From contig CALXLM010000010.1 in assembly GCA_944389195.1 (NCBI GenBank), positions 1-59,229 on the forward strand: a stretch of 59,229 nt of DNA, read 5' to 3'. A model generated the notes under the pieces. The model ran no database searches and was not told where the DNA came from. It saw only the letters and a program-made list of their open reading frames with translations. Positions 24,523-51,029 of this stretch are shown one piece after another (the first letter of the stretch is position 1; each line of letters opens with the position of its first letter). Both the position numbers and the translations under genes were made by a program. Source of the DNA: an uncultured Opitutales bacterium. Its GTDB lineage: Bacteria > Verrucomicrobiota > Verrucomicrobiia > Opitutales > Intestinicryptomonadaceae.

Positions 24523-25410
24523 CTACCGGCTGCCGCCCCCGAGCTTCCACACCCGGAGATACTCGACCGCAAACTCCGCCGGCAAATCCTCGGCATTGGG
24601 CTCGCCCGACCACGTTTTCATAACTTCGCAGTCTATATTTACGTACAACGGACGGTGGCAAAAATCGTTCGGGCGCTCGTCGACTATCCTGCCGTCGAGA
24701 ACCCACACGAGCTTCTCCGGCGTCCACAGAAGTCCGGCAGTATGGTATCTTTCCGAAAACGACTCGGACACCGCGGTTTTTTTCCCTTTTACTTCCCTGC
24801 CCAGCCACACTTTAGACTCAACATACGGAGTTTTCGCCCGATGCGTTGTGGTAAAATAAATTCTGTCGTTCGGTGGCGTCTTGGAATCATTTGGACGGAA
24901 TGTGCTTTTGCCAAAGACTTCAAATATGTCTATCTCCTCTATAAATCCGCCCGGAGTGTACTTTTTCGGCGGATCGAGCGGATCGTTCAGCCAAAACGCG
25001 TTGCACACGCACGCGTTCATAGCTTTGAATTTGACTTCAAAATAACCGTACAATACCCGCTTTTTGCTTCTGAAAGCCGCCGTGGAAAATTTCTCCTTCC
25101 CCTCGGCCCTGAGCTCCGGCGACACGTCGCCGGGGTTTTCGGCGCGCGCGGTAAGAACGAGCATGCCGTCTCGAACCGAGACGTTTTTTCTGGCAAAATG
25201 AAACATTCCCGCCCTGCCGTTCCATGTGGGATAAAAATCGTTCCAGCGGGAAGAATCGAACCCGTTTTCAAATTCGTCGCTAAACTCGGCGTTAAGTTCG
25301 TATCCGTCGGGAAAGAGAGACGCCGGCGCGTCCGGCTTATATTGCCCGAAAAGCGCCGCACACGGCAAGGCGATAAAACAAACTGCAAGCGGTAACGTGG
25401 ATCTTAGCAT
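24523..25410 (-). CDS. secreted GH16 family glycoside hydrolase
   Basis: The 295-residue protein has a signal peptide from the ATG at 25410 (MLRSTLPLAVCFIALPCAAL); a longer upstream reading lacks this logic. The GH16 jelly-roll core includes FSDEFENGFDSSRWND, YGYFEVKFKAMNA, and the catalytic motif EEIDIFEVFG, fitting ExDxxE with Glu nucleophile and acid/base. LLWTPEKLVWVLDGRIV and the terminal AVEYLRVWKLG strand are also typical. GH16 enzymes cut beta-1,3/1,4-glucans or marine galactans such as agar and carrageenan. DCEVMKTWSG suggests the agarase/porphyranase-like side, but the substrate cannot be fixed. No SusCD-like partner is beside it. Confidence 0.88.
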   Translation of the reverse strand: MLRSTLPLAVCFIALPCAALFGQYKPDAPASLFPDGYELNAEFSDEFENGFDSSRWNDFYPTWNGRAGMFHFARKNVSVRDGMLVLTARAENPGDVSPELRAEGKEKFSTAAFRSKKRVLYGYFEVKFKAMNACVCNAFWLNDPLDPPKKYTPGGFIEEIDIFEVFGKSTFRPNDSKTPPNDRIYFTTTHRAKTPYVESKVWLGREVKGKKTAVSESFSERYHTAGLLWTPEKLVWVLDGRIVDERPNDFCHRPLYVNIDCEVMKTWSGEPNAEDLPAEFAVEYLRVWKLGGGSR

Positions 25411-25651
25411 AAAATTCCAAATATATGTTTTGAGTCGCCTGTCAAACGGAAAAAGGCGGCCTGCCTCCCGCAATTTCCCATATCGCTTAAAGGGCTAAAA
25501 GGAAACTATTGCGCTTTTCCAAACCGGATTTAAAAAATTAAGAAAGTGAAACGCCGGCGCAAGCGGCATGGGAACCGCAAAACCATTTGCCTTATTAAGC
25601 GGTGTGCGGCGCATTTTCACATAATAAAAAAATAATCGGCCGCAGCAAAAT

Positions 25652-25726: not shown

Positions 25727-28003
25727 CTACATAAGAGAATAGCTTACCGTAAAGCCCGCCATAACGATCGCCACCATGCTCATCAGCTTGATGAGAATGT
25801 TGAGCGACGGGCCCGAAGTATCCTTAAACGGATCTCCCACGGTGTCGCCTATGACGGCCGCCTTGTGGGCATCCGATCCCTTTCCTCCGAAGTTGCCCTG
25901 CTCTATGTATTTCTTTGCGTTGTCCCACGCTCCGCCGCTGTTTGCCATAAACACGGCCAAAACAAAGCCCGACGCGAGCGCGCCGCCCAATATTCCGAGG
26001 ACTCCTGGGACGCCGAAAAGCAGGCCCATCACTATCGGAGCCGCAACCGCAAGAAGCGCGGGGAAAAGCATTTCCTTCTGCGCCGCCTTTGTTGAAATAG
26101 ATACGCACCTTGCATAATCAGGGTCTGTTTTACCCTCCATTATGCCGGAATTTTCGCGGAATTGGCGGCGCACCTCGTTTACCATTTGGTTGGCCGCCCG
26201 CCCTACGGCGTTCATTGTAAGCCCGCAAAACAAAAACGACATCATGGATCCAACAAACATGCCCATAAGCACTTTCGGATTCATGAGATTTACTTGGTAA
26301 ACCTGCATAAAATCTAACAAAGACGCGTTTTCCACGCCCCCGCTTACTTTGGAAAATCCCTCCAAAGCCTTTCCGGCATAATCGGTGACTGACTCGTTTT
26401 GCCCCACGCGCAACAGCCCTATCCTAAGCTCCTCGACATAGGACGCCAAAAGAGCGAGCGCCGTAAGGGCCGCCGAACCTATTGCGAAACCCTTACCCGT
26501 AGCAGCCGTCGTGTTTCCGAGCGAATCGAGCATATCCGTCCTGCGGCGTACCTCCTTGCCCAACCCAGACATTTCGGCGTTTCCGCCCGCATTATCGGCT
26601 ATGGGGCCGTAAGCGTCGGTTGCCAATGTGATTCCGAGAGTCGAAAGCATGCCCACGGCGGCTATGCCGATACCGTAAAGACCCTGGCTTATATTTGCGA
26701 AATCTCCCGAAGCCGAAAATGCGTACGCCAAAACCGTGCCTATTACAATCGCCACGACGGGATAAAAAGTAGATATCATGCCCGTGCCCATACCCGCAAT
26801 AATGACAGTCGCCGGGCCCGTCTTTGACTGTTCCGCGATTGCGCGGGTCGGCGCGTAGGCTTCCGAAGTGAAATATTCGGTTATCTTACCGATAAATATG
26901 CCGGTGGCAAGTCCAACGATAATAGAGCCCCAATTGCCCAGCCAATTTTCAAGCCCGAGCAAATAAAGTACGGCTGCCGAAACTGCGGCTATAAGAACCG
27001 AGCTTAAATTTACGCCGCGCGAAAGCGCATTTAGGAGCTCCTTGCTCGACGCACCTTTCTTAACCCTTACAAAATAAATTCCGACAATCGACAAAATGAC
27101 GCCGATGGCGCCTATGACCATCGGGGCGAAAACTGCCTTCATTTGCGTGGAAGGCTCCGTCATGTACGCGGAGGCGCCCAAAGCGGCCGTGGCAAGTATC
27201 GAACCGCAATACGATTCGTAAAGGTCGGCGCCCATGCCCGCGACGTCGCCCACATTGTCGCCCACGTTGTCGGCTATCGTGGCCGGATTGCGCGGATCGT
27301 CCTCCGGAATTCCGGCTTCGACCTTTCCCACGAGGTCGGCACCGACGTCGGCGGCCTTTGTAAATATGCCGCCCCCCACGCGGGCAAACAGCGCCTGAAG
27401 GCTGGCCCCCATTCCGAATGTCAGCATTGTGGTGGTGATGATAACCATCTTGTGGGTTTGGCTGGCGTCGTCTATAAAGTGGTTGAGAATCACAAACCAT
27501 GCGGAGATGTCGAGAAGAGCGAGCCCCACGACCACAAGCCCCATGACCGCGCCAGAGCGGAACGCCACGCGCAAACCGTGGTCGAGCGAATTTTTGGCGG
27601 CGTTTGCGGCGCGGTTGGAGGCGTATGTCGCCGTCTTCATTCCGAAGAATCCTGCAAGCCCCGAGAAAAACCCGCCCGTAATAAATGCAAACGGCACCCA
27701 CGAGTTTTGAACTTTCAAGCCGTAGGCAAGGAAAGCGAAGAAAAAGAAAAGTATGACAAACACTATGCCGACAATCTTATATTGCTGGCGCAAGTACGCC
27801 AAGGCTCCGTGGCGGACATGAAGGGCGATTTTCATCATGATGTCGCTGCCCTCCTCCTCCCTCTTCATTCCCCTGTAAAATTTCAGGGCAAACAGGAGCG
27901 CCACAACAGAGGCAACCGGCACCAGCCAGAAAACCGGATTTATCGGTGTTGACTGCGCCCCGGCCGAGAGCGCCGCCAAAATATTTATGTAGTCTGTATT
28001 CAT
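25727..28003 (-). CDS. hppA: membrane-bound pyrophosphatase, K+-dependent type (H+ or Na+ pumping)
   Basis: This integral enzyme couples PPi hydrolysis to cation transport. From the ATG at 28003 it is 758 residues with about 16 membrane segments. The loops contain DVGADLVGKVEAGIPEDDPR, DNVGDNVGDVAGMGADLYES and DNAGGNAEMSG, which hold the PPi/Mg2+-binding acidic residues. GGAWDNAKKYIEQG..GKGSDAHKAAVIGDTVGDPFKDT closes the active site. The segment GNTTAATGKG has Ala where K+-independent enzymes have Lys, pointing to the K+-dependent class, many of which pump Na+ or both Na+ and H+. Which ion is moved cannot be settled here. The N-terminus has a Met nearer the start than the longest reading, which would add an implausible 22 residues. 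Confidence 0.95.
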   Translation of the reverse strand: MNTDYINILAALSAGAQSTPINPVFWLVPVASVVALLFALKFYRGMKREEEGSDIMMKIALHVRHGALAYLRQQYKIVGIVFVILFFFFAFLAYGLKVQNSWVPFAFITGGFFSGLAGFFGMKTATYASNRAANAAKNSLDHGLRVAFRSGAVMGLVVVGLALLDISAWFVILNHFIDDASQTHKMVIITTTMLTFGMGASLQALFARVGGGIFTKAADVGADLVGKVEAGIPEDDPRNPATIADNVGDNVGDVAGMGADLYESYCGSILATAALGASAYMTEPSTQMKAVFAPMVIGAIGVILSIVGIYFVRVKKGASSKELLNALSRGVNLSSVLIAAVSAAVLYLLGLENWLGNWGSIIVGLATGIFIGKITEYFTSEAYAPTRAIAEQSKTGPATVIIAGMGTGMISTFYPVVAIVIGTVLAYAFSASGDFANISQGLYGIGIAAVGMLSTLGITLATDAYGPIADNAGGNAEMSGLGKEVRRRTDMLDSLGNTTAATGKGFAIGSAALTALALLASYVEELRIGLLRVGQNESVTDYAGKALEGFSKVSGGVENASLLDFMQVYQVNLMNPKVLMGMFVGSMMSFLFCGLTMNAVGRAANQMVNEVRRQFRENSGIMEGKTDPDYARCVSISTKAAQKEMLFPALLAVAAPIVMGLLFGVPGVLGILGGALASGFVLAVFMANSGGAWDNAKKYIEQGNFGGKGSDAHKAAVIGDTVGDPFKDTSGPSLNILIKLMSMVAIVMAGFTVSYSLM

Positions 28004-28251
28004 ATTGCTGTAATAATAAAGAAAGCGAAAAAAATTTTTATGTCCGTCCATCGAAAATTCCGCACACAAAAATTCACACGATTTACCAGAATGGTATAAA
28101 AAAATAAAATCTCCAACTTTTTTTTCGGGATTTTTTTATGCCGCGACAACAGCCGCAACGCCGCCTTTGGCGCCGTTTTCAGACTCCGGCGGCTGAAATT
28201 TCGGATTCGCGCGCGCCTTATTTGCAAAAAATGTTTTGCGAACCCAATCCA

Positions 28252-28308: not shown

Positions 28309-31305
28309 CTATTTTCTTCTGCGATAAAACGCCAGCACCAAAGCGATAACGCCGAACACGACGGCAAAATCGGCGGGTTCGGGTATCATTACCGAATAGG
28401 CGTAGGAGGAAAAACCGTCAACCTCAAAAGAAAGGTACTGTCCGTCGTACGACAGCCCGGATATGTTCGCAGCCTCCGACCATTCGGAAGACTCCCCTCC
28501 ATCACGATGGTATATCACAAAATCGGACACCTTTAACGTAGAGTCGTTTACCAGAAAACTAAGCAACACAGTGTCTCCGACATTCATGCCGGAAACATCG
28601 AACTCATACGCCTCCGCGGCGCGGAAATCCTTGCCTATCGCCTCCACGAGCGAATCCGTTACAGTTTTTACGGACGAAACAGTCGCTCCGTCGGCATGAA
28701 AATCCATCTTTATTTTAGCTTCAGTTCCGTCCTTGGAAAGCAGTACCCTTCCGTTGGCATCAACTGCGACTGCCTGACCGACGTCGTCAATCTGCATCGC
28801 ATTCGCCTCGGCGACCACAAACGTGTTGCCCACGAGCGTGCCGCCGTAAGCCTTCACGTTTCCGTAGTCCGAAATGCCTGCCGACGACAGCTCGAACGAG
28901 CCGCCCTCGGAGCCCGTGTTGGCAATCAAATTCAGCGTGCCGCTGTTTTTAAACGACAAACCTGAATTCGACAGAGCGTATGAAGCTCCCACCTTCAAAC
29001 CGAGCGCAGCGCCGCTTGCGATTGAAACGGAAGACGCCCCTAACTGGCCGTTTACGTTCATCGTGCCCTCGTTGACGTTCAAAGCTCCCAAAAAATTATT
29101 CATGGAAGAGTTCACCGTCAGCGTTCCCGCCCCGTTTTTCGACAAAACAGACTTATCGACGCCTTCGATGGAGTCAGCCGCGGAATTAACCGTTCCGATC
29201 GCGAGCGTGGCGCCGGAGGATACGTTGAAGACTGCGTTTGCTGCGGTCGATCCGCTTTCGTCGTAATCCAAGTACAGGAATCCGCCTTCAGCGGCTGTGT
29301 TCCCCGCGTACTTCATGTCTTTTGTAGCGCTGAGAACCATGGAGGCGCCCCCAAGATAAATCGCGCCGCCGCGGGTATCCGCTGAATTTGAATCAAACGC
29401 AGTGTCGGTTATTGACACGCTGACAGGCTTGCCCCTGTTGTACGCCATTATAGCACCGCCCATTGTTGTAGCCCCGTCCTTCTGGGCAACTACCTTATTG
29501 TTTGTAAAAGAGCTGCCAGCAATATTCAATGCAACATTGTCGGCGGTTTTGCTCTCTATATAAACTGTACCTCCCGCCAAACTTTCGCTCGCGTAGCCCG
29601 AATTGCCGTTGAACTCGGAATTAGAAATTGTAAGGTTGTGGTTGTTTGCGTAGGCGACAACCCCGCGGACTTTGTCGGAGGTGGCTGTGGCGGTGTTATT
29701 TTTAAATTTAGAATCCTCAAACTTGAAGTCGGAACTGAGTCCGTAGAAGAAGCCTCCCTGGACATAGTTGTTTTCGATTGCGTTATCCATAACGACAACA
29801 TTCTCGAACGACACAAAAGTACTGTCGGGATCGTTCGCATAGTCAGTAAATATGCCCCCTAATCCCGCGCCGTTTTTATATGTGTTGCCTATGAATTCGG
29901 AATTCTTAAACACGACGTTTCCGCCCCAAATGTAAGACGTCGCGTCTGAAGCCGCAATATTGTTCATTTTCGCAACAAATGTGAAATTTCCCTGTATGGA
30001 CGAGCCCTGCAGCATATCGACACTCAAATTGTCCACCACGGCGCCGTTAACCGCCGAAAAGGAATTGAATCCCTTAACCTTCAAGCCCGATATGTCCTTG
30101 TAAAACTGTATTGTAGAATTGCCCGAAACGGACGCGCTTGAGCCTTCTTCTTTCCCGCCGTAAATGACGCCCGAAACGGACGGATTTTCGCTGTTGTCGC
30201 CAAAAATTACGCTCACATTGCCCGAAACCGCGCTGTTTTTGCCGGCGGCGTAAAGATCGCCGTTGAGAGCGCCGGAATTCATGGCAATCGACACGCTGCC
30301 GTCGACGCTCGACCCTTCGCCCACGCCGTATATGTCGCCGTTGACGGTCGCCCCCCTCAAAGCCACCGTAGCATTGCCAACGATTTTGTCGCTCAGCCCC
30401 GATCCGTAAACATTTCCGACGACAACGCCGCCGTCCAAATATATGCTTGATTTCCCTTTTACGGTGCCTCCGTTGCCGCCTCCGTAAATGTTTCCGGTTA
30501 GCGATCCTCCCGAAAAAAATACGGCGGAATCCCCGTTAACGTATGTGTCGCCTTCTGAGCCTCCGGCAAATATATTGCCTTTTATTGAACCCCCGCTGAC
30601 GGAAATGATTGTTGACCCGACATACGCGCCGTTGTTTCTGGCTCCCGCGTAAATATTGCCGGTAATGTCGGCGGTTCCGGATATCCCTATGTTTACCGCA
30701 CCCTCGACGTTCGAATATGAACCGCCGCCGCCGCGGATCGAGTCGGAACCCTTTCCCGTCACCGTGCCGCCGCTGATGCTTATTTTCACGCTGCCGACTG
30801 AAGACGATATGTCGGAAATATCGCTGGCGTTGTTGATGTTGTTCCCGCCGCGAATCATATTTACCGTGCCGCCGGTCATGTTTAAGACAATGTTTCCAAG
30901 CTTGGAATCCGGGCTCTCGCCAACGTTTAAATACGTACCCAATACGAGGCCGTCGTTAGGTGTAAGCGTTCCGCCAGAAAAATTCACCGTTATATTTGTT
31001 CCGTCAGGAACAATCGGCAGCGATTCTCCGGAAGTGGTCTTCCACCAATGCGAGCCGCCTGCAACATTATGAGCGACGACCGCGCCGTCCTTTATGTTCA
31101 ATATAATGTCACCCCCGGTGTAGTTGGTCCCCATTCCGTAAAAATCGTAATATTCGGAATCGAGGGAGCTTACATAGTTTGATCCGCCATATGAGCCGTC
31201 GCCGACATACTCGGTCACGGTCGCAGTTTTGCTGCCCGCAGCAAATGTCGAATTACAGGCAACCGCAAAACTTATTAGCGAAATAATTAAACGTCTGTTT
31301 TTCAT
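28309..31305 (-). CDS. large Pmp-like beta-helix surface protein with PEP-CTERM anchor
   Basis: The 998-residue secreted protein has a signal peptide (MKNRRLIISLISFAVACNST). Residues about 150-400 hold some ten glycine-rich repeats of the form G-x-I-Y-G-G-G, such as GNIYAGARNNG, GNIFAGGSEG and GNVYGSGLSD. Residues about 480-680 carry FxxN and GGAI motifs (FKNNTATA, FTNNKVVA, FDSNSADTRGGAIYLGG), as in chlamydial polymorphic membrane proteins. A section of autotransporter-associated strand repeat follows (SKNGAGTLTVNSSMNNFLGA). There is no autotransporter barrel; the C-terminus is a PEP-CTERM tail: IPEPADFAVVFGVIALVLAF then YRRRK. It is likely processed by an exosortase, not in the window, and exposed or released. 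AGGGGATT precedes the ATG. Confidence 0.85.
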   Translation of the reverse strand: MKNRRLIISLISFAVACNSTFAAGSKTATVTEYVGDGSYGGSNYVSSLDSEYYDFYGMGTNYTGGDIILNIKDGAVVAHNVAGGSHWWKTTSGESLPIVPDGTNITVNFSGGTLTPNDGLVLGTYLNVGESPDSKLGNIVLNMTGGTVNMIRGGNNINNASDISDISSSVGSVKISISGGTVTGKGSDSIRGGGGSYSNVEGAVNIGISGTADITGNIYAGARNNGAYVGSTIISVSGGSIKGNIFAGGSEGDTYVNGDSAVFFSGGSLTGNIYGGGNGGTVKGKSSIYLDGGVVVGNVYGSGLSDKIVGNATVALRGATVNGDIYGVGEGSSVDGSVSIAMNSGALNGDLYAAGKNSAVSGNVSVIFGDNSENPSVSGVIYGGKEEGSSASVSGNSTIQFYKDISGLKVKGFNSFSAVNGAVVDNLSVDMLQGSSIQGNFTFVAKMNNIAASDATSYIWGGNVVFKNSEFIGNTYKNGAGLGGIFTDYANDPDSTFVSFENVVVMDNAIENNYVQGGFFYGLSSDFKFEDSKFKNNTATATSDKVRGVVAYANNHNLTISNSEFNGNSGYASESLAGGTVYIESKTADNVALNIAGSSFTNNKVVAQKDGATTMGGAIMAYNRGKPVSVSITDTAFDSNSADTRGGAIYLGGASMVLSATKDMKYAGNTAAEGGFLYLDYDESGSTAANAVFNVSSGATLAIGTVNSAADSIEGVDKSVLSKNGAGTLTVNSSMNNFLGALNVNEGTMNVNGQLGASSVSIASGAALGLKVGASYALSNSGLSFKNSGTLNLIANTGSEGGSFELSSAGISDYGNVKAYGGTLVGNTFVVAEANAMQIDDVGQAVAVDANGRVLLSKDGTEAKIKMDFHADGATVSSVKTVTDSLVEAIGKDFRAAEAYEFDVSGMNVGDTVLLSFLVNDSTLKVSDFVIYHRDGGESSEWSEAANISGLSYDGQYLSFEVDGFSSYAYSVMIPEPADFAVVFGVIALVLAFYRRRK

Positions 31306-31570: not shown

Positions 31571-33642
31571 TCAGCGTTTCGCGGAAAGAACCCTGTATTT
31601 CCACAACCCGAAGGAATTTTTCTTCGGAAGGGAAAATTTTATGCGCCCCTCCGAATCGGCCGTGCCTGAAAAAGCCTTTGCATCTCCCATAAGCGGCTCA
31701 AACTCAACGGACGCACCGCCGCCTAAACGCAAGGCGATTTTCGCATCCGGAGAACCGTTCATTTCCCTGTAAACGACCACATAGCCCGACGACGGTGACA
31801 ATGCGGACTGAAAGCCCGTCCACGAACATCCCGAAGGCTCGTCGCCTATCGGCAAGATAATTCCCTTATGGAAATCCGCAGAAAATTTAAGGTACCGCCT
31901 TACGAGAGGCTCGAGAATTTCCAGCTGCCCGTCCGAAAGGGAGGTAAGCTCCATCCACGCCAAAGGCTGGGCGGCCATTGTTATGGCAAAAAGATAGCCC
32001 AAGTCGTAATTCGACGGGGCAAAAATATCGCCTTCGTATTTTTCTGAGTTTCTGGCGTTGTTTAAAAACTCTATCTGAAGGCGTTCCGGGGGGACGTATT
32101 TTGAGACCATCCACAGGTTGCGCAATGTCCAATACGGATAATAATTGCGCCAATCGGTGTAGCGGTTCTCCAAAAATATATTGCCGTACTCGTTGTAGGA
32201 GAAATATCCGCCGCGCCGCCCCGCCATGACGTCGAGATTGAACACGGCACGCCCGCGCGTATGCCCGAGCACGGAATCGTATATGGAACGGACGCGCTCC
32301 TCGCCGAGTTTGCTGGTGATTTTAAGTCCGTCTATTTTAAAAGTGCGTATTCCGTAATCGTCGAAAAGGCGGTTTAACGCCGCCACGTCCTTTTCCCAGT
32401 CGGCGAAGTCGTCCTGAACGCTCGGGCTAAACCACAGGCAGAGTTCCACCCCCGCTTTTTTGGCGGCCTCGACGACCTTCATAAAGCCGTTAGGATACTT
32501 GGTTTTGGGGGGTGTCCAATATTCGGGGTTGTCCCATATATTTTTAAAAGAGCCCCGTAGGCTGAATTTCCGCTTTTGCCCTCCTGCCAGCCGTCGTCTA
32601 TTTGAAAGTGTGTGACGCCTATTTTTGCGGCACGCGCAATTTCCCCCATGCAAAAAGACTCCGTCACCTTTGTGTCCCTTCCGCGATCCCCCCATGTATT
32701 TGCCATTACCATTTCGTCGCGGCCGGGCTTCAAAATTCGCAGCTTTTTCTGGTAGCGCCGCAGAGCCGCCAGCCTTTCCGTTTCGCCGCCCCTCCAGACT
32801 CCGAACACGTATCCGTAGGCGGGAGTCCATTCGTCCCGGGAAACGTCGGGCGAATCGAGCCCCGCCCCCACAAGGTTGAATCGCCCGAAATCCGAAAGGA
32901 AATCCGCGCCGGGATAGGCCAGTTGGACCGCGGAGCACGGGGATTCTTTCAGCCAAAAAATACCCGCCCTCGTTTCGGCGTTTTCCATAAACAGCAAATT
33001 TCCCCTGTGTTGTGCCGGGCGGTACGAAAGGCAGGAATACTCCCTAAGATAGGTGTTAACATGGTCGGTGGCGTCGAAAAACTCGACAGAAAGAAGCCTC
33101 CAATGCTTTCCGGGAAAAGACAGCGAATCCAAGGCCAAAACCAAATTTTTAACTTTGGCGGCCGACGCGCTCTCTATGTTTTTTCTATCGACAGCCGCCT
33201 TTTGGGCGCCTATCCAAGAAGCGGCTTTCGGCGCGCCCGAAAAATAAACGCGGCACGCTATTGCGGGAGAGTCTTCGTATATTCTAAAAATGCGCTTTAC
33301 TCTTATGCCGCCCTTTTATCCCGTCTCGCATTCGAGCCAGCCTTTTCGAATTTCAGAATCCTCCACAACCTTTTTTTTAAAATAGCCGCCAGAGGCCTTT
33401 TGGGTTTCCCCGGGAATGAGCAAATCGGGACGTTTCCCGTCGGAAAGCGTGGTTGTGCCGGATTTCTTGTCGGTTATCGAAAGGGTTTTTAAGTCTCCTG
33501 CGTTAAAATCGAATTTCCTCTCGATTTCGCCGTTGCCGATTTTTAGGATATTTCCTTCAAGTTTGGCGTAAGGTTCCGCAAGAAGGGAACAGGAAATGAA
33601 TACCATAAACAAAAAAAAAGCAATACGGGCAATCTTAATCAT
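31571..33642 (-). pseudogene. secreted clan GH-D (GH36-like) alpha-galactosidase gene, broken by a stop and a frameshift
   Basis: Three segments join into one protein of about 690 residues. The first starts at 33642 with a signal peptide (MIKIARIAFFLFMVFISCSLL) and ends at an in-frame TAA at 33316-33318. The same frame then continues to about 32545 with clear homology (RIYEDSPAIACRVYF, THFQIDDGWQEGKSG). The reading then moves to the -1 frame for NIWDNPEYWTPPKTKYPNGF..KAGVELCLWFSP, FKIDGLKI (probable nucleophile Asp) and the C-terminal beta domain, ending at 31571. The switch point contains a T TTA AAA slippery heptamer (32548-32542), but loss of one G from the run at 32553-32556 explains it equally well. 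Two lesions favour a recent pseudogene or sequence errors over programmed recoding. Confidence 0.75.
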
Positions 33643-50033: not shown

Positions 50034-51029
50034 ATGGACAAAAACTATTTTACGTTCGTGCGGCGCCATTGCCGTTTAAAGGGCGAAACGGATTCTTTCC
50101 TAAAAAAGCTTCCCGAGCGGCGCACGAAAATCCTATGCAAAGCAATAGATGAGGCGGAAGCCGGAAACTGCCGCTTCCTTCGCCTCGCCCGCGCGCAGCG
50201 GGCTGCGGCGGCGCCATTTCGAACGGACGTCCCGCTGAAAATATCCGACTTAAAGATAAGCACGCAGCCGGGCAAAACTGGCGTGCGGGTGCGCGTATAT
50301 GAACCTGAATCCGGCAAAAGCGGGAAAGCCCTGCTTTACATGCACGGCGGCGGTTGGACAATAGGAGGAGTGGAATCGTGCCAAAGATTCTGCGCCGACT
50401 GTGCCGCTGGCGGAAACTGCACAGTGATATCTATAGACTACTCGCTCGCTCCGGAAGCGAAATTTCCGATACCCGTCATGGAATGTTCGGAAGTTTTCGA
50501 ATATGTCTCAAAAAATGCTGCCCTATTCGGTATATCCGAAGAAAAAATAACCCTCGCAGGCGACAGCGCCGGCGGGAACATTGCGCTCGCCGCAGCCATA
50601 CGGCTCTTGGAACGGAAGAAAACTCAGCCATGCGCCCTCGTTTTATTCTATCCGGTCACAACTCTTGTCCCGAAACGAAACGAAGGCTCCTGGAAAAAAT
50701 TCGGGCGCGGTTTCGCTTTGGATTCCGAGCTTATGGACGCGTTTTCAAGGGCATATCTTGAAAAGCCCTCCCAGGCATTTTCACAATACGCCTCCCCGCT
50801 TATGTACGACCGCCTGGGGGAACTTCCGCCCACCCTGCTCATCGCCTCAGGCAAAGACATACTGCACGACCAGTCGGAAAGTCTTGCAAAAAGCATGTCG
50901 GCAGCCGGCGCAAAAATCCGCTATGTGGACATACGGGAAGCCACGCACATATACATAACCATGGAGGGCATGGAAAAATCCTATTCAACAGCCCTCCGCG
51001 AAACTCTTTCGTTTCTCGAAAAGTTCTGA
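50034..51029 (+). CDS. alpha/beta-hydrolase esterase, hormone-sensitive lipase family
   Basis: The 331-residue protein has the HSL-family oxyanion motif YMHGGGWTIGG (about residue 103), DYSLAPEAKFP, the nucleophile elbow AGDSAGGNIALAA (Ser about 177), the acid in SGKDILHDQSE and the catalytic His in EATHIYITMEG. Such enzymes hydrolyse short acyl esters, including acetylated sugars or xenobiotics. No signal peptide is visible, so it is probably cytoplasmic. It stands alone after gyrA and converges on the nucleoside hydrolase gene. Substrate unknown. Confidence 0.88.
   Translation: MDKNYFTFVRRHCRLKGETDSFLKKLPERRTKILCKAIDEAEAGNCRFLRLARAQRAAAAPFRTDVPLKISDLKISTQPGKTGVRVRVYEPESGKSGKALLYMHGGGWTIGGVESCQRFCADCAAGGNCTVISIDYSLAPEAKFPIPVMECSEVFEYVSKNAALFGISEEKITLAGDSAGGNIALAAAIRLLERKKTQPCALVLFYPVTTLVPKRNEGSWKKFGRGFALDSELMDAFSRAYLEKPSQAFSQYASPLMYDRLGELPPTLLIASGKDILHDQSESLAKSMSAAGAKIRYVDIREATHIYITMEGMEKSYSTALRETLSFLEKF

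Follow-up and report, generated by a model that had tools for sequence, protein, structure and literature searches.

Enzymes of family GH36 have a beta-sandwich, a (beta/alpha)8 barrel and a C-terminal beta domain. Among glycosidase genes known to lie in two frames, the closest described case is the Sulfolobus solfataricus alpha-L-fucosidase gene fucA1, reported as being expressed by -1 frameshifting (PMC8211752), and an Escherichia coli survey covering all 64 heptamers puts even the best three V_VV.A_AA.G motifs at ~0.3% without stimulators (PMC4066793). Here we describe a broken gene of a GH36-like glycosidase in contig CALXLM010000010.1 (GCA_944389195.1; 59,229 nucleotides, the whole of which is referred to as the window) from an uncultured Opitutales bacterium of the Intestinicryptomonadaceae. 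The gene occupies 33642-31571 of the minus strand, with an ATG at 33642 and a terminal TGA at 31571-31573, and a slippery T TTA AAA heptamer lies close to its frame change. It is probably a recently inactivated pseudogene, whose intact form was probably a secreted enzyme.

Two lesions absent from nine intact homologues

The gene is interrupted at two separate places, by a stop codon and by a one-base change of frame; its relatives hold it whole. Nine homologues were examined, three from the same genus (G012, G011 and G006) and six from Bacteroidales metagenome-assembled genomes (MAGs), and all nine have a single open frame across both lesion sites; the G006 homologue runs off the end of its contig, and the matching C-terminal part is on another contig. 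As the original prediction described, pieces 1 and 2 share one minus-strand frame with only a TAA between them, and piece 3 lies in the -1 frame relative to both (Table 1). Its suggestion that the two lesions reflect decay or sequencing error is supported by the homologues, which are open at both sites.

At the position of the TAA the homologues carry sense codons in the alignment of nine (codons were printed for four, the other five being judged from the alignment), and the window copy is one codon shorter in this stretch. No sign of TAA recoding was seen, although no direct test of readthrough was made. The N-terminus of piece 1 is a hydrophobic stretch that appears signal-like by eye. Translation from the ATG would end at the TAA after 108 residues, ahead of the barrel part, so that no enzyme would be made.

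The frame change can be placed closely, codons having been printed there for all nine homologues. The zero frame matches the same-genus homologues through GKSGNSAYG, ending at 32554, and the -1 frame matches homologues from the G at 32554 onward (GSFKNIW); a GGGG run is present on the minus strand at 32556-32553. The G, S and F residues are invariant in the nine homologues and are encoded in the -1 frame of the window copy. Since the G and S codons both precede the heptamer in full, the shift in frame comes ahead of it, and not at it as had been proposed.

Table 1. Parts of the broken gene and the neighbouring pyrophosphatase gene
Feature	Position	Strand	Remarks
Piece 1	33319..33642	-	Start and first 108 codons; aligns with the nine homologues
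In-frame TAA	33316..33318	-	No counterpart stop in any of the nine homologues
Piece 2, zero frame	32479..33315	-	Homologous to ~32554; the remainder, up to a TGA at 32479, is out of frame
T TTA AAA heptamer	32542..32548	-	Phe-Lys codons read out of phase; the frame change lies upstream
Piece 3, -1 frame	31571..32560	-	Carries FKIDG and NLDVxAGRRGG blocks; ends with TGA at 31571-31573
H+ pyrophosphatase	25727..28069	-	Pfam H_PPase; directly beside the intact homologue in G012

Enzyme family and distribution

Sequence comparison supports a GH36-like enzyme, with alpha-galactosidase activity only predicted, and the initial assignment to an alpha-galactosidase-type gene was about right. The three intact homologues scanned all pass the curated Pfam Melibiase (PF02065) cut-off (29.3, 32.1 and 36.9 bits against 27) and so belong to GH36/Melibiase by that profile, with a match covering only 102-125 residues. 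The three window pieces alone gave no Pfam match at E 0.001 and no useful match against Pfam, NCBIfam or the PDB; the profile had seven PDB matches at E 0.01, all named alpha-galactosidase. We treat the fold matches of a structure model of homologue L010 as supporting evidence only, because the model is of low confidence (mean predicted local distance difference test score, pLDDT, 61.6; predicted template modelling score, pTM, 0.47). GH36 alpha-galactosidases match it first (E 6e-22, template modelling (TM) score 0.26) with GH97 close behind, and the leading matches have 10-13% identity at TM ~0.25. We take the gene product to be a glycosidase of the clan GH-D type. In four Bacteroidales MAGs (loci L011, L012, L013 and L015) the homologue forms the C-terminal half of a 1,314-1,337-codon frame, with a part of ~600 residues ahead of it.

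A search with piece 3 across 14 genomes of the genus found matches in four: its own, where it has a single location, G012 (67% identity), G011 (55%) and G006 (70% and 53% on two contigs). The same four genomes were recovered among 19 in a family search with piece 2, and a wider contig search added six further loci, all in Bacteroidales MAGs, at 54-58% identity. The other ten of the 14 genomes gave no match to piece 3, which suggests that members of the genus can do without the gene; the absence from one of the ten, G004, is uninformative because neither the pyrophosphatase query nor the IMPDH query found a match there. G004 is odd in this respect, being a single contig listed in the same genus with 95% completeness. 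Loss is plausible because the genome has three further melibiase-type genes, whose matching regions contain no stops, and these may have relaxed the need for the broken gene.

The G012 homologue, 64.6% identical over 686 residues, is the immediate neighbour of the H+ pyrophosphatase gene that is also found near the broken copy in the window; G006 and G011 have their homologues at a distance from the pyrophosphatase gene. With the G012 protein as query, no remnant was found at E 1e-3 between the pyrophosphatase and IMPDH genes of four genomes, two of which lack the gene (G002 and G003) and two of which have it elsewhere (G006 and G011).

Gene loss, assembly error and frameshifting

Two disabling lesions that none of the nine homologues shares are the hallmark of a pseudogene. 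Relaxed selection is not evident: conserved columns show no clear surplus of changes, as expected if the loss was recent, and the ratio of nonsynonymous to synonymous substitution rates (dN/dS) could not decide because synonymous sites are saturated or nearly so. Under the pseudogene interpretation the lesions would have arisen recently in this lineage.

Several observations weigh against the pseudogene interpretation. Among columns on which all other rows are unanimous, the window copy differs at 6 of 195 (3.1%), the fourth highest of ten rows, with departures in the nine intact rows ranging from 2 to 20 of 159-209 columns (1.0-9.6%); at 536 sites common to four rows, unique changes number 17 in the window, 15 in G012, 30 in G006 and 79 in G011. 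The copy has thus not clearly drifted faster than its intact relatives, so the lesions would be either recent or assembly errors: the sequence carries no sign of long decay, as would be expected after a recent loss and just as much for an intact gene that was misassembled. Synteny with G012 holds on the pyrophosphatase side only, since the IMPDH gene there is on a different contig, where 1.9 kb of adjacent sequence gave no GH match; the G012 gene is therefore a likely, not proven, orthologue. The comparison with relatives takes in 23 of the 43 other open reading frames (ORFs), leaving 20 that account for most of the left 24 kb of the window. Finally, Antonov et al. expect sequencing errors, and not real indels, to underlie homology-validated singleton frameshifts (PMC3711429).

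The strongest competing explanation, unlikely but to be taken seriously, is that the organism has an intact gene and that both lesions entered the contig as assembly or sequencing errors. Beyond the published expectation just cited, it draws on conserved positions being retained to much the same degree as in intact relatives and on a genome assembled in 55 contigs. A single gene would have to have suffered two independent errors, however, and one of the lesions is a missing codon plus a stop in the alignment, not a simple one-base error. We compared open frames from six stretches of G012 and G002 totalling ~115 kb, and from the two loci around their pyrophosphatase genes, with the window, and 99 of the 286 frames, many of them shadow frames, matched. 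The matches cover 23 of the 43 other window ORFs, each in one frame: 21 of the 22 from 33783 on, 24523-25473 and the pyrophosphatase gene. No match to the G012 and G002 stretches was found left of 24.5 kb, so that the check covers the window from there on. Two-frame matches came from five queries, two from the broken gene (one of them a shadow frame) and three that we put down to shadow frames, to an upstream extension or to a paralogue. No second frame break was found among the 23 comparable genes, and only the broken gene was judged to be split between frames. As it makes up 3.8% of the coding bases of the window, a second random error would strike it with roughly that chance. Two lesions in so small a fraction, one a missing codon with a stop, favour real loss only moderately; an artefact is less likely than a recent pseudogene, although the assembly alone separates the two only in part.

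A mixed population of broken and intact alleles, from which the assembler chose or mixed the broken one, would fit recent lesions together with good conservation, but no data show two alleles and piece 3 sits at a single place in the genome, making this highly improbable.

Programmed -1 frameshifting at T TTA AAA, combined with readthrough of the TAA to give a full-length enzyme, is less probable still. In its favour, the protein looks conserved until recently, an archaeal glycosidase, the S. solfataricus fucosidase, is described as working in this way (PMC8211752), and the heptamer is close to the frame change and in the correct phase, the zero frame reading T TTA AAA at 32548-32542 just as originally stated. 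The frame change itself, however, lies upstream of this in-phase X XXY YYZ heptamer, and a slip there would give A-L-L in place of the invariant G-S-F. What appears as the heptamer is a Phe-Lys codon pair, TTT AAA, together with the A that follows, read one base out of phase. The comparison with intact homologues that had been called for found no stop in any of the nine, and the heptamer absent from eight, which have different codons, and out of slip phase in G011, where TTT AAA AAT at the frame-change site contains the same seven bases. None of the nine shares the two-frame arrangement, so it lacks the conservation of a programmed frameshift. Slippage alone would be insufficient because the upstream TAA would end translation first. 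We reject programmed frameshifting on the position of the break, the lack of conservation and the upstream stop.

Nor is the heptamer unusual for this DNA. The window has 36 copies of TTTAAAA, compared with 29.6 +/- 6.5 in shuffled sequences, 19 of 100 of which reach 36, and the motif is thus not enriched beyond chance. The 43 other ORFs hold 161 in-phase XXXYYYZ heptamers per 17,167 codon positions, 71 with A/T-only triplets, and when these ORFs are taken as genes TTTAAAA stands in codon phase ten times and in slip phase three times; piece 2 itself (279 codons) has seven in-phase XXXYYYZ heptamers. At that rate the chance of an in-phase heptamer within four codons of a given point is low (~0.04), which the Phe-Lys codons lying there account for. 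The 119 nucleotides from the heptamer on fold no better than expected in a pseudoknot-free model (z = -0.75, 33 of 200 shuffles at least as stable). The significance attached to the slippery site by the original prediction is therefore not supported, with the break upstream, the Phe-Lys codons displaced, the fold like that of shuffles and the TAA met first. Least credible of all is a transitional rescue of the newly broken gene, in which slippage at T TTA AAA and TAA readthrough would give a low level of full-length enzyme. Separate polypeptides made by re-initiation are not supported, because no homologue is split and conserved blocks lie on both pieces 2 and 3; start sites were outside the analysis.

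Neighbouring genes and comparison with known systems

Between the broken gene and the pyrophosphatase gene, direct neighbours in G012, the window has a minus-strand gene (28309-31305) for a 998-aa repeat-rich protein with no Pfam match and a C-terminus that we take to be PEP-CTERM-like. The stretch 33783-59229 is collinear, gene for gene, with ~90000-126800 of G012 contig C37 except for 50034-51029, an ORF with no match in that contig region. Near the left end, a plus-strand RHS-repeat ORF (344-2908; Pfam RHS_repeat) ends without an evident core domain and could be truncated.

The broken gene is of little significance beyond annotation. The locus is nevertheless a clean example of how a one-base indel beside Phe-Lys codons places TTTAAAA in slippage phase, so that finding a heptamer close to a broken frame says little for programmed frameshifting unless conserved residues put the break at the heptamer itself.

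The intact homologues resemble GH36 alpha-galactosidases (PF02065; PDB 3mi6, 2xn0 and 4fnr) in their Melibiase match and in their PDB and fold matches; they differ in the short Pfam match, the 10-13% fold identity and the closeness of GH97. Like fucA1 (PMC8211752), the broken gene encodes a glycosidase split between two frames, with a heptamer close to where they join, and has full-length relatives. In the present gene, by contrast, slippage would cost the product three invariant residues, the phase of the heptamer is not conserved and there is a separate upstream stop. The singleton frameshifted bacterial genes (PMC3711429) are similar in having a homology-validated frame break in one genome only, and the gene described here differs from them in its additional, separate in-frame stop.
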